A stretch of DNA of 52,697 bases from positions 80,001 through 132,697 of the forward strand of contig NZ_LR734870.1 in the NCBI RefSeq assembly GCF_900010725.2, in the 5' to 3' direction. The stretch is from Planktothrix serta PCC 8927. GTDB lineage: Bacteria; Cyanobacteriota; Cyanobacteriia; Cyanobacteriales; Microcoleaceae. The notes below the pieces were generated by a model, which worked only from the letters and a program-made list of their open reading frames with translations, made no database searches and was not told the origin of the DNA. Shown one piece after another: positions 32,273-35,991 of the stretch. Every line of letters begins with the position of its first letter. The stretch's first letter is position 1. The position numbers and the translations under genes were made by a program.

Positions 32273-32301
32273 AATATAATGTTGTTATTGGGGTGTTCCA
32301 A
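32273..32301 (-). promoter_or_regulatory. Possible promoter for prlC
   Basis: On the minus strand TTGGAA (32296-32301), a 17-bp spacer and TATATT (32273-32278), about 55 bp upstream of the prlC ATG. Spacing is ideal; the boxes are fair matches. Confidence 0.4.
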
Positions 32302-32359
32302 CGCGGGGCGAGGTTAAAGATTCCGGCGTTGTGGGTGGATTGCTGGTGTCAGCAGTGTT

Positions 32360-34321
32360 TTATGGAGTTTGGGAAGATGATCGAGTATCAGAAACCTTGC
32401 TAATTCCTTGAGACAATAAGGTTCTGTATGCTTGCTGCGGATGAGTTGGCTCGTCAGGGTATTTGAGTTCAAGCAATTTTTCTGACCACATCGGATTAAT
32501 GTAATGAGTTCTAATTGTTTCAGAACTGCGATTCAATAGTTCAGCTAATCTTTTTACAGTTAAATATCTTTCCGAACACAGTTTCAGAATAGTATCTCTC
32601 ATCAACTCAGGACTTACCCGATTCTTCTCTCGAACGGGAGCAGCTATTTCTAGTAATAATAAATTTTCATCTTTATGCACGGAGCTTGTCTGATTATGCA
32701 CGGAGCTAGACTCGTTATGCACGGAGCTTGGCTCGTTATGCACGGAGCTTGGCTCGTTATGTTCGGAGCTAGACTCGTTATGTTCGGAGCTTGGTTCATA
32801 ATATTCGGAGCTTGGAAGCAGTGAAAGCAAATCCGGTTGACCTTTATTTGGTAGAGCATACTGGGTTCCACGTCCACGTCCTGATTGTGCCAACCAGCCG
32901 TTATTGACCAAGTGCTTTAGGCACTCTCCTATATCTCTAGGGTGTTCCTGTCTGTAACACTGAATGTCACTATTACTAATTTCTCCAAACTGATGCGCTA
33001 GTACCAAAATAATTCGATCTAATTCTGTTAGTTCGCAGTAGTTATCTCCCACTATTTCTTTTAGTTCTTGCTCGACATTTTCAGGAATTAAACTAAGCAT
33101 CGGCAGAGCAACAGATGTCATCTCTAAATCGAATTTTTCTGACACTAATGGCCTAAACCATTGTTGTTCTTTCCAGGCTCGTAGAATCTTTTTAAAACCC
33201 GATCCGGCTTTTTCACCTAAACCAAGCATTTGAAACATTGTTTGCAGTTTAGGATTGCGCGGATCGCTGATACCTCCATCATAAAGTTGCAGAATAGAAA
33301 TCCTTAGCCGACCTGGATTATTGAATAAAAAACCATTAGGAAACTTAGTTACTATAATAGGACGAGAAGATAAATGATCGGCATGAATTAAAGTATTTAC
33401 TAGAGCCTCCCTAACCGCTTCATGGACATGAGTTTCTCCCCGCCTCACAGCATCTTTATCTAGTTTAAACGGAACATCTAAATCATTAACTAAACGACTA
33501 TAGACGCGATAATAAAAATTGAAGAGATTAGGCTCCCATTTACCATCAAGTGTCAGTCTATATGTCCAACGAACATCTGGATCGTTAGACAGCCGTTCTT
33601 GATAGTCAAGTTGATAGCGAGGAAGTGCCTCTGAAATACTATTTCCCCTCCCGAACATTAGTAAACCAGCGAGAGTTAACCCTTCTTTATCAGTGTTTCT
33701 ATTGCGCCTCCATCCGCCTAACTGAATCAATAAATTGCGCTCGTCTAATGCTAACCAAGGATGATCTGGTTCCCTGGAGCTAAAGCGTTGACGAAAAGAT
33801 TTTAAAGTTTCTGGATCGAGGTCTCGCAGGTCAAATTTATCTAAAATTTGGATATCTTGAGGGTCATTACTGGCATCGCGTAACATTTGGCGAACTTCAT
33901 CATCCGTGCAAGGATAATCGCCGTCATGGTTGCGTTTATAGGTTCCCGTTATGGGATTTTTATTAATATAAACAGGTCGTTGCGTTCTAGTTGCTCTAGG
34001 AACTTTAATAATAACTAAATTATGACTTTCTATCTTCAAAGTTTGCACGTCAGAATTATCGCAAATTGAGAAGCTTAGTTTTTGCTGATTATTATGATTA
34101 TTCCAAAACTCTTTAAGTAAAACATTAGGATTGCGAACACCTGTAATCTCGAATCTATTTCGATTTTCAGTGACACCTAGAACAATATAACCGCCATCTG
34201 TATTGGCAAAAGCTGATACAGTTTTCCAAACTTCATTGGGAAAACCGCCGTCAGCAGACTTAAATTCAATGTCTTGGTCTTCTCCAAGATTTATTCGCTC
34301 AAGTAATGTTTCTAAATCCAT
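32360..34321 (-). CDS. AlbA_2 (Schlafen-like) and GHKL ATPase protein
   Basis: A 653-residue protein. Residues 1-130 form an AlbA_2 domain (DIEFKSADGG, ANTDGGYIVLGV) that binds nucleic acid; about 290-400 is a GHKL-type ATPase-like part (REALVNTLIHADHL, LFNNPGRLRIS); 430-510 is a winged helix; 520-570 is a repeat of seven heptads; the end is another HTH (TVKRLAELLNRSSETIRTHY). Such proteins are often found in defence islands and as putative transcriptional regulators; function here is not known. It shares the segment between the putative transposon end and prlC with a VapBC pair, so it may be transposon cargo. Confidence 0.85.
   Translation of the reverse strand: MDLETLLERINLGEDQDIEFKSADGGFPNEVWKTVSAFANTDGGYIVLGVTENRNRFEITGVRNPNVLLKEFWNNHNNQQKLSFSICDNSDVQTLKIESHNLVIIKVPRATRTQRPVYINKNPITGTYKRNHDGDYPCTDDEVRQMLRDASNDPQDIQILDKFDLRDLDPETLKSFRQRFSSREPDHPWLALDERNLLIQLGGWRRNRNTDKEGLTLAGLLMFGRGNSISEALPRYQLDYQERLSNDPDVRWTYRLTLDGKWEPNLFNFYYRVYSRLVNDLDVPFKLDKDAVRRGETHVHEAVREALVNTLIHADHLSSRPIIVTKFPNGFLFNNPGRLRISILQLYDGGISDPRNPKLQTMFQMLGLGEKAGSGFKKILRAWKEQQWFRPLVSEKFDLEMTSVALPMLSLIPENVEQELKEIVGDNYCELTELDRIILVLAHQFGEISNSDIQCYRQEHPRDIGECLKHLVNNGWLAQSGRGRGTQYALPNKGQPDLLSLLPSSEYYEPSSEHNESSSEHNEPSSVHNEPSSVHNESSSVHNQTSSVHKDENLLLLEIAAPVREKNRVSPELMRDTILKLCSERYLTVKRLAELLNRSSETIRTHYINPMWSEKLLELKYPDEPTHPQQAYRTLLSQGISKVSDTRSSSQTP
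32675..32815. repeat. 21-bp in-frame repeat, seven units
   Basis: About seven near-identical 21-bp units (GGAGCTTGGCTCGTTATGCAC type) encoding heptads such as SSVHNEP and SSEHNES in the linker of the AlbA_2 protein. The copy number is expected to vary between strains. Confidence 0.9.
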
Positions 34322-34369
34322 TTAATTTTCCTCTTTCTTTGGCTTGGGTTTTCGCTGAACATCTCACCC

Positions 34370-34771
34370 CTATAATTCCCAGTCTTCTATGCGTAAACCT
34401 TGCACTCGTCCAAACTCACTAATATTATGAGTCACCAAAACTAAATTATTAGCTAAAGCGATCGCCGCAATTTGCAGATCGTAGGGGCCGATAGGCGTTC
34501 CTAAAGCTGCCAATTCAGCGCGAATTCTGCCAAAAATACTAGCTGCTGCATCATCAAAAGGTAACGAAACAAATTGAATTAAAAATGCTTCCTGTAGCGC
34601 CAGTGTCCGAGTTGGGTTTGAGCTTCTCATCGCCCCATAAAACAATTCAGCCTTGACCACAGAACAAACAGCAACATCACTCGGCGATAACCGTTCTAAA
34701 TGTTGCTGTACTCCTGAATTGCGACGGTTCAGGTAAATAATACAGACATTGGTATCCAGTAAATAAATCAC
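34370..34771 (-). CDS. vapC: PIN-domain ribonuclease toxin, VapC type
   Basis: A 133-residue PIN protein. Acidic metal ligands are visible: Asp6 (MIYLLDTNVC), Glu in VVKAELFYG and Asp in GPYDLQIAA. VapC toxins cut RNA, often tRNA. The start is GTG, overlapping the antitoxin's stop (GTGA, 4 bp), so translation is coupled. Length is normal and no truncation is seen. The pair sits 42 bp from the likely transposon repeats, next to the tRNA. Confidence 0.9.
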   Translation of the reverse strand: MIYLLDTNVCIIYLNRRNSGVQQHLERLSPSDVAVCSVVKAELFYGAMRSSNPTRTLALQEAFLIQFVSLPFDDAAASIFGRIRAELAALGTPIGPYDLQIAAIALANNLVLVTHNISEFGRVQGLRIEDWEL

Positions 34772-35022
34772 TCGATTTTCTCCCTAACCTCATATTCACC
34801 TTGGGGATACCTCACCAATGGCTCATCAGCTAAACAGCCTGCTGTTTGTTCAAAAAAACCTGATATCCAGCCTAATTTTTCAGGGGTTTGAGTTGAAGTT
34901 TCGGGAGAAACAAGCTGATAGACGATGGCAATCTCTAACTCTTGATTCGCTAAATCTTGAGGAACTTGTAAAATAACTTTTCCCTCAGCATCAACGCGAG
35001 TTTTAACCTTAATCACTTGCAT
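34768..35022 (-). CDS. Antitoxin partner of VapC
   Basis: An 84-residue protein. The N-terminal half (IKVKTRVDAEGKVILQVP) looks like a beta-hairpin DNA-binding fold of the AbrB type; the C-terminal half (EKLGWISGFFEQTAG, LVRYPQGEYEVREKIE) matches the usual toxin-binding tail. It is immediately upstream of vapC with a 4-bp overlap. A strong ribosome-binding site (35031-35037) sets the start at 35022. Confidence 0.82.
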   Translation of the reverse strand: MQVIKVKTRVDAEGKVILQVPQDLANQELEIAIVYQLVSPETSTQTPEKLGWISGFFEQTAGCLADEPLVRYPQGEYEVREKIE

Positions 35023-35030
35023 AAGTTAGT

Positions 35031-35037
35031 TCTCCTT
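35031..35037 (-). promoter_or_regulatory. Ribosome-binding site of the antitoxin gene
   Basis: AAGGAGA on the minus strand, 8 bp before the ATG at 35022. It is unusually strong for this window, where most starts have none. Confidence 0.75.
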
Positions 35038-35063
35038 ATTAATTTGTTAATCAATCTTTTAAA

Positions 35064-35127
35064 CCGCAATAAAGTGTGAAAAACGACATTAATTTGTGAA
35101 TGACGACAAATAATGTGATAATCGACA
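35064..35127 (-). mobile_element. Putative end of a Tn7-like (type V-K CAST-type) transposon
   Basis: Reading the minus strand away from the tRNA, the end starts TGTCGATTA at 35127. Then come three direct repeats of the form TCACAnnTTAnTGTCG: 35104-35118, 35084-35099 and 35064-35079 (the last ends TTGCGG). They begin exactly 20 bp apart. From memory this layout (TGT start, then spaced TGTCG-type TnsB sites) matches the left end of ShCAST in base order and spacing. The end lies 7 bp past the 3' end of the tRNA-Ala, the usual attachment place of such elements. Only this end is seen. Another reading is an operator of the adjacent antitoxin gene. Confidence 0.6.
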
Positions 35128-35134
35128 ACGAAAA

Positions 35135-35207
35135 TGGAGAATAGGGGATTCGAACCCCTGACCTCTGCGGTGCGATCGCAGCACTCTACCAACTGAGCTA
35201 ATTCCCC
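35135..35207 (-). tRNA. tRNA-Ala(CGC)
   Basis: 73 nt without CCA. Acceptor GGGGAAT pairs with ATTCTCC and has the G3-U70 pair that marks tRNA-Ala. D loop AGTTGGTA, anticodon stem CTGCG/CGCAG, loop ATCGCAC with anticodon CGC, T arm AGGGG-TTCGAAT-CCCCT. The HIP1 octamer GCGATCGC spans the anticodon stem and loop. No promoter was clearly seen upstream. Confidence 0.96.
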
Positions 35208-35262
35208 GAATTATTGGAGCCATTTATCGGTGAGGAATGACATCTGACTCCGATTTAATATA

Positions 35263-35991
35263 TTAACACAAGGGAACGGTAGATTGTAAAGGTTCTTGTA
35301 AAAATTTTTTTTGAATTCTCTCTAATTCCAGATCCGAGAACCGATCCACCGCCCAATTTGCCCAGCGTTGCAGAAAATGTAAGGGGTAGGTATGGGCGAT
35401 ACCGACCACTTGTATTCCGGCCCGTTGGGCTGCGATAATCCCCACAAAGGTATCCTCGATGGCGAGACAGTCTGAGGGCTGTAAGTTTAATTGGGGGTAA
35501 ACCTGGTTTAAGCGTTCTACCGCTAACAAATAGCCTTCGGGTTCGGGTTTGCTGAGGGTAATATCATCCCCTGTCACAATAATCGGAAAATTATTCCTCA
35601 GTCCACTGCGATTTAAGATTAGTTCCACTTCCTCCCCCATCGCACCTGTCACCAAAGCTAATTTTAGATCGGCGGCTTGCAACTGTTGGAGTAAGGTTTC
35701 AAGACCGGGATAGAGGGGAAGGGGTTCTAACTGTTGTAAGCGATTTTGGTAGGCGATGGATTTACGTTCAATTAATTGATCTAAATAGGCATTACTAACA
35801 GCCCGACCTCGATAAGTTAACAGGTCTGTTAAACAAGCGCGATCGCTCCGTCCTAAACAAAATTTGCGAATTTCTTCCCGTTTAGAACGTAGGTTTTCTG
35901 TCAGCAATAGTTCTTCTATGAGTTGCTCATGGATGGGTTCATCATTAATAATGACTCCATTAAAATCAAATAGAACCGCCTTTAAACTCAT
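35263..35991 (-). CDS. HAD-superfamily hydrolase
   Basis: 242 residues from the ATG at 35991 (MSLKAVLFDFNG). The open frame extends 46 more codons to 36129, but this stretch is repeat DNA (AACAGGG and CAGTCAA units) and is not part of a natural N-terminus. The protein is of the beta-phosphoglucomutase type: nucleophile Asp9 in LFDFNGVI, Thr in LALVTGAMG, Lys in LSKPEPEGY and Asp in CLAIEDTFVGI. The second Asp of DxD, the acid/base, is Asn (DFNG), which may alter or reduce activity. The tRNA gene lies 55 bp beyond its stop. Substrate not known. Confidence 0.9.
   Translation of the reverse strand: MSLKAVLFDFNGVIINDEPIHEQLIEELLLTENLRSKREEIRKFCLGRSDRACLTDLLTYRGRAVSNAYLDQLIERKSIAYQNRLQQLEPLPLYPGLETLLQQLQAADLKLALVTGAMGEEVELILNRSGLRNNFPIIVTGDDITLSKPEPEGYLLAVERLNQVYPQLNLQPSDCLAIEDTFVGIIAAQRAGIQVVGIAHTYPLHFLQRWANWAVDRFSDLELERIQKKFLQEPLQSTVPLC

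Follow-up and report, generated by a model that had tools for sequence, protein, structure and literature searches.

What is the array of short repeats that lies directly behind the tRNA-Ala(CGC) gene of Planktothrix serta PCC 8927, and what kind of element did it belong to? Type V-K CASTs are Tn7-like elements with Cas12k, and form the family that includes ShCAST, AcCAST, and AnCAST. The initial annotation of the locus proposed that the repeats are the end of such an element, present either as a remnant or as a solo end. As judged from the sequence, the region 32302–35127 is almost certainly what remains of a decayed type V-K CAST at a tRNA-Ala(CGC) attachment site. This reading draws on the identity of the left end, its position at the tRNA, the letters of the PAM and protospacer, a stump of tniQ, and the synteny of the cargo. 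The element is a fossil of an already known kind, and its former activity is that known for the V-K CAST family.

The window (the whole stretch of DNA analyzed; 52,697 bases, G000:C50:80001–132697) is part of contig C50 (132,697 bases) in a 6.27 Mb genome of 155 contigs. Its relevant features are as follows.

32277–32301, no strand: break point region, between the end of the homology upstream of the peptidase gene and the start of the tniQ stump at 32302
32302–32403, plus: 3′ stump of a V-K tniQ, 33 codons plus stop codon, convergent with the AlbA_2 gene
32360–34321, minus: AlbA_2/Schlafen-type protein of 653 aa (PF04326), CAST cargo
34370–34771, minus: PIN-domain toxin of the tRNA(fMet)-specific VapC type (PF01850; NF047863 above cut-off), putative cargo
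34768–35022, minus: small ORF in the antitoxin (vapB-like) position, putative cargo by position
35038–35050, minus: degraded fourth left-end repeat TTAACAAATTAAT, from by-eye comparison with the fourth repeat of the G003 and G022 left ends
35064–35127, minus: left end of a type V-K CAST, with terminus TGTCGA and three TnsB-type repeats (model R1, invariant columns)
35128–35132, minus: TTCGT, putative 5-bp target copy flanking the left end (letters only)
35135–35207, minus: tRNA-Ala(CGC), the attachment-site gene (ARAGORN; Rfam RF00005, 67.1 bits)
35173–35186, minus: putative anchor protospacer GAGTGCTGCGATCG in the tRNA, identical over 14 nt to the guide in L141 and L238
35187–35189, minus: putative PAM GTA at tRNA positions 19–21, 59 bp from the left-end terminus, from the guides of L141 and L238

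A V-K left end behind tRNA-Ala(CGC)

The tRNA-Ala(CGC) gene is intact and is the sole Rfam match above the gathering threshold in the window. On the minus strand it is followed by 7 bp and then by TGTCGATTATCACATTATTTGTCGTCATTCACAAATTAATGTCGTTTTTCACACTTTATTGCGG, such that exactly 7 bp separate the tRNA 3′ end from the TGTCGA terminus (35127–35122), as first annotated; the left end is thus downstream of the tRNA and points at the element. The three repeats had been described as starting exactly 20 bp apart. The array is real, but the exact form TCACAnnTTAnTGTCG is found in the middle repeat only (35099–35084), the outer repeat TCACATTATTTGTCG (35118–35104) is one base shorter, the inner repeat TCACACTTTATTGCGG (35079–35064) has 2 mismatches, and the TCACA starts are spaced by 19 and 20 bp. 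The third repeat is without TGTC. A spaced fourth repeat is visible by eye in the left ends of G003 and G022, and the inner portion of the window left end breaks off at its degraded counterpart.

Taken singly, the repeats occur at chance level (when up to 3 mismatches are allowed, 13.1 matches are expected and 16 found), whereas the ordered array is far above chance and scores 48.7 bits with model R1, with 35067–35127 corresponding to model positions 1–61. Model R1 uses sequence only and was made from an alignment of 32 left ends adjoining cas12k genes or fragments in other genera (29 from Cas12k-matching loci, plus three from G040, G045, and G058), with the window and all ten genus genomes excluded from training. 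The window left end is the top R1 match of the genome, with E-values (rough, by the tool's own statement) of 7.7e-14 on the contig of 132,697 bases and 3.6e-12 in the genome; the runner-up has an E-value of 0.004. It agrees with the alignment at all 15 invariant columns and at 13 of the 16 nearly invariant ones. The annotation had likened the repeats, in base order and spacing, to the left end of ShCAST, and had proposed an alignment with V-K CAST ends as the check. The similarity to V-K CAST ends is strong, and the array is predicted to be a TnsB-binding end of the V-K type.

A DNA search with 35030–35135 across 59 genomes (including its own) gave matches in nine. By eye, eight of the 16 non-self loci lie behind a tRNA or a tRNA piece and the other eight are not beside a tRNA, seven of these being in G045 and one beside ssrA in G003.

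The putative target site within the tRNA

Published accounts of V-K CASTs describe a left end downstream of a tRNA, a truncated repeat, and a 17-nt anchor spacer (PMC9938897; PMC11406308), and place a GTN PAM 46–82 nt from the left end with one exception (PMC9938897). The layout of tRNA, short guide, and GTN in our reference loci is the same as that published. The reference set comprises 44 loci with a Cas12k match (fragments among them), and in 30 of these a tRNA 3′ end faces the Cas12k-side end. In 26 of the 30, a guide of 16–21 matching nt lies next to a repeat 3′ end and can be matched to the tRNA region that follows a GTN; the scan tried only positions after GT and allowed up to 2 mismatches with at least 16 matching nt. 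Loci L135, L152, L155, and L157 yielded no convincing guide, and L125 and L128 yielded no end. Scripted distances from PAM to end are 54–66 bp in 16 of the 24 rows having both guide and end, and 23–49 or 79 bp in the other eight, a looseness that is partly due to mis-picking of nested ends.

The initial proposal that the tRNA body was the guide target is supported by two cas12k-bearing CASTs of other genomes, L141 (Cyanocohniella sp. LLY) and L238 (G174), both of which stand behind tRNA-Ala(CGC). Their guides, next to a truncated repeat, are GAGTGCTGCGATCG, and the tRNA has the same 14 nt directly after GTA. The PAM had been placed at GTT; this is indeed present at tRNA positions 15–17, 63 bp from the terminus, but GTA is more likely to be the PAM of the window element because the guides of both CASTs start right after it. 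GTA (59 bp) and GTT (63 bp) are both within the published range, although PAM distance alone is weak support because tRNA-Ala(CGC) holds further GTN. On contig C50 the 14-nt sequence occurs once only, in the tRNA itself.

The G174 element resembles that of the window in that its TGTCGA terminus is also 59 bp from GTA (five bases inside the script's first pick), whereas L141 has the terminus TGTACA at 54 bp. Both differ from the window in having cas12k, CRISPR arrays, and guides, although the G174 Cas12k frame (559 aa, C1:5500907–5502553) covers model positions 84–629 and is without the first 83. Solo left ends in Kamptonema sp. UHCC 0994 (G022, L021; G022:C10 is contig NZ_JARFTR010000161.1) and in G017 (L102) are situated 8 bp behind tRNA-Ala(CGC) and 60 bp from GTA; their interiors differ from that of the window, and no right end was recognized in the flank examined. 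G022 also has a CAST with cas12k, tniQ, and tnsB at tRNA-Val. In G017 (L102, G017:C7:2120000–2139900) the tRNA-Ala with its short left-end scar (98–202) is followed 1 kb on by another left-end scar (1103–1188), which accompanies a duplicate of the 3′ portion of that tRNA.

Cargo genes and a tniQ stump

Inward from the left end are the fourth repeat, the vapB-like ORF, vapC, the AlbA_2 gene, and the tniQ stump. The vapB-like ORF has no Pfam or NCBIfam match and is weakly similar to part of the cas12k-bearing contig L049 (35%, 83 aa); this match and the position of the genes suggest that vapBC is probably part of the CAST cargo. The AlbA_2 protein is 64% identical over residues 1–651 of its 653 to a PF04326 cargo gene adjoining tniQ in the CAST of Aphanothece hegewaldii CCALA 016 (L143), where AlbA_2 and tniQ are likewise tail to tail. 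This CAST differs from the window in having tnsB, tnsC, tniQ, a regulator, and cas12k (ORFs named by position and similarity), and in having a 1391-codon gene after AlbA_2 where the window has vapBC. The window AlbA_2 gene also contains near-identical short repeats at 32650–32877, corresponding to SSVHNEP-like peptide repeats towards the C-terminus.

The annotation had listed tniQ among the genes absent from the window, which is incorrect with respect to its 3′ end. Positions 32302–32403 of the plus strand translate to RGARLKIPALWVDCWCQQCFMEFGKMIEYQKPC followed by a stop, the tail of a V-K TniQ (reference protein PF06527), with 74% identity over 31 aa (E = 1.2e-10) in a genome search and 77% over 30 aa (E = 1.9e-11) in a contig search. 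Core gene sequence of the V-K type is thus present, as this stump, on the cargo side; its order and strand fit a V-K CAST because in the V-K elements L051 and L143 tniQ faces the cargo, with the left end farther on.

Missing parts and the far border

The remnant shares with type V-K CASTs the architecture of the left end, its facing of a tRNA, the GTN PAM distance, tniQ sequence, and cargo beside tniQ. V-K CASTs differ in having Cas12k, a CRISPR array, a tracrRNA, a guide, tnsB, tnsC, and a right end, none of which was found in the remnant. The other end, tnsB, cas12k, and a CRISPR array had been noted as absent from the window, and they were not found elsewhere on contig C50 either. For Cas12k, there is no NF038191 match in G000 or in eight genus mates (G005 left out), no tblastn match on C50, and no match for G000 in a census of 242 genomes. 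No V-K TnsB was found in G000 or nine genus mates, the best G000 match being only 27% identical. A TnsC search restricted to C50 gave one 28% match (E = 0.03), and another search gave none. The 3′ stump is all that was found of tniQ.

On C50, blastn with the tracr regions of two CASTs gave only short chance matches, there is no exact CRISPR repeat 3′ end, and no truncated repeat with an anchor spacer was found inside the left end. A right end was not recovered by a fuzzy repeat scan of all 132,697 bases, by model R1, or by blastn with two queries, the right end of a CAST and a presumed one of G003. The parts of an intact element that were not found are therefore Cas12k, tnsB, tnsC, full tniQ, tracrRNA, CRISPR array, and right end, and it is because these and the guide are lacking that the locus is read as a decayed remnant. 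A remnant is one of the two forms first proposed. Since neither a partner end nor a V-K transposase was found, the element should now be immobile and, as far as sequence can tell, inactive.

At the far border, homology of the M3 peptidase region to genus mates ends between about 32252 and 32289. The peptidase gene was seen to adjoin tRNA-Ala in none of the nine mates; the two are on separate contigs in seven drafts and more than 1.6 Mb apart in G001 and G009. The upstream neighbor of the peptidase gene is common to five of the nine mates (G002–G006), and its G000 copy (91%) is on another contig, at C49:143390–144826. The end of the peptidase homology and the location of this neighbor on C49 therefore place the tniQ stump at the break point of a rearrangement. 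As for the reciprocal product, about 0.6 kb beside the neighbor on C49 contains no CAST piece by eye. A CAST-driven replicative rearrangement is a possible cause of the far break. The tRNA-Ala and a phosphatase gene are present in the nine mates, and the G000 flank downstream of tRNA-Ala matches none of them, such that no empty site was recovered.

A proposed history of the element

We infer a guide-directed insertion from the anatomy of the locus and from the two cas12k-bearing relatives at the same tRNA. A short anchor crRNA would have paired with tRNA-Ala(CGC) after the GTA PAM, and TnsB, TnsC, TniQ, and Cas12k would have inserted the intact element about 59 bp from GTA, leaving the left end 7 bp behind the tRNA. 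Later losses, whose order and mechanism are reconstructed here, would have taken the anchor guide, CRISPR array, tracrRNA, and cas12k with its regulator from the region inward of the left end; at the far side they would have taken the right end, tnsB, tnsC, and all but the 3′ part of tniQ. The far break would coincide with a rearrangement of the chromosome by which the element came to adjoin the peptidase gene, and the left end, the cargo (vapBC and AlbA_2), and the tniQ tail would be what remained.

Other left ends in the genome, the genus, and the order

A second V-K CAST fossil is located on the same contig outside the window, at C50:49215–51358 (L035 9215–11358). It contains a tRNA-Pro(CGG), a 29-aa piece of a MerR-type CAST regulator (69%; reference PF13411), an AlbA_2 gene (PF04326) with 77% identity over 486 aa to a cargo gene that adjoins tniQ in a Cuspidothrix CAST (L126), and a tniQ fragment (84% over 45 aa); a left end was not found at these coordinates. 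A weak left-end match elsewhere in G000 (C57:610679–610717, L189; E = 0.004) lies behind tRNA-Pro(GGG), and G006 has a match at the same tRNA (G006:C238:9974–10026; E = 3.8e-5), common to two species of the genus. This locus is a probable third V-K CAST fossil in G000.

Left ends with E-values up to 1e-6 are present in five of the ten genus genomes, and Cas12k was found in none of the nine of the ten that were searched. A tRNA 3′ end is within 45 bp for nine of 13 left-end hits at this threshold, that of the window included (13 of 14 hits checked, from 13 genomes, ten of them the genus; G022:C286 left out). The census sampled 242 genomes of the order. The left-end model has a hit with an E-value up to 1e-6 in 116 of these, a Cas12k hit is present in 77, both are present in 69, and 47 have a left end only; the overlap assumes that the same 242 genomes were used in both searches, with which the genome handles agree, and the figure of 47 will be inflated by the draft state of assemblies, by right ends, and by ends of related elements that are not CASTs. 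A further 29 top-scoring census loci from the 116 genomes were checked for tRNAs, 26 of them belonging to genomes with a Cas12k match; in 22 of the 29 the left end faces a tRNA no more than 73 bp away.

Several of these loci have features of their own. At L022 (G057:C138, 17363–17541) a left end at tRNA-Phe has a surviving guide GACTGAAAATCCTCGTGT by a repeat 3′ end, which corresponds to the tRNA-Phe letters after GTG; G057 has no Cas12k match, and this is a fossil that has kept its guide. At L175, L176, and L185 (G003, G002, and G006) a left end stands close to a gene pair (335 and about 461 codons) that seems to be common to these three species of the genus, and in L185 a tRNA-like 3′ fragment lies ahead of the left end (by eye). 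Beside ssrA (tmRNA) in G003 (L019/L020, G003:C40:357531–358927), a left end and a presumed right end are about 1.4 kb apart; the interior contains ISL3-type transposase ORFs (PF01610, PF14690) in a block with ends GGCTCTCC/GGAGAGCC, and the pair has the appearance of a mini-element into which an insertion sequence has gone. In G045 the left-end-like sequences of L011, L013, L014, L016, and L017 are away from tRNAs and have common inner sequence (by eye), and are possibly a small non-autonomous family with V-K-like ends.

Alternative readings of the left end

The remnant may have decayed while its left end was kept for a present function, such as transposition immunity or the driving of vapBC, which we regard as improbable. 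Remnant left ends are indeed found repeatedly at tRNAs where the genome has no Cas12k match, some being common to different species, and in the window the two outer repeats are intact while the third and fourth have decayed. However, mere survival beside an essential tRNA would look alike, and since no Cas12k was found in G000 or the eight mates searched, there is perhaps nothing to be immune against. The more general form of this idea, that orphan left ends by tRNAs are cis-acting TnsB-binding marks kept by the host and immunizing the site against RNA-guided insertion, is also decidedly doubtful.

An origin of the end in a Tn7-like element that shares the TnsB sites but is devoid of Cas12k, untargeted or non-autonomous, and that reached the tRNA by another route, is very improbable. 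Left-end-like sequences away from tRNAs do exist (the seven G045 copies and the ssrA-linked pair), as do the 47 genomes with model matches and no Cas12k match, but the tniQ stump and AlbA_2 gene match Cas12k-bearing elements in order and orientation, and the PAM distance and tRNA match those of CASTs with cas12k and guides at tRNA-Ala(CGC). Both points favor the decayed V-K CAST.

The idea that the repeats are an operator or promoter of vapBC unrelated to a transposon has next to no probability and was rejected: they do lie 42–105 bp upstream of the vapB start, but the array matches CAST ends in register, no minus-strand promoter-like site was predicted in 34900–35300, and none of 11 vapC-like loci of the genus (from 13 non-self matches listed, two of which had no locus) carries the repeat in an exact-pattern scan or has a tRNA. 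Repeats upstream of vapB homologues away from tRNAs, or an alignment without similarity to CAST ends, had been named beforehand as the findings that would speak against a transposon, and neither was obtained.

Significance of left-end fossils

Decayed Cas12k genes are already published, in that PMC9938897 reports twelve degenerated Cas12k proteins that were left out. No title or abstract on orphan V-K left ends was found in the open-licence literature (preprints excluded), an absence that is not proof.

The locus indicates that V-K CASTs can decay recognizably, such that the left end and cargo stay while the machinery goes, and that a short left-end model detects likely fossils in genomes without a Cas12k match. 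One genome contains two clear fossils and a probable third, in a genus where Cas12k was not found in the nine of ten genomes searched. Counts of such scars would reveal the turnover of RNA-guided transposons, the tRNAs they used, and the cargo they left behind (AlbA_2 and probably vapBC).
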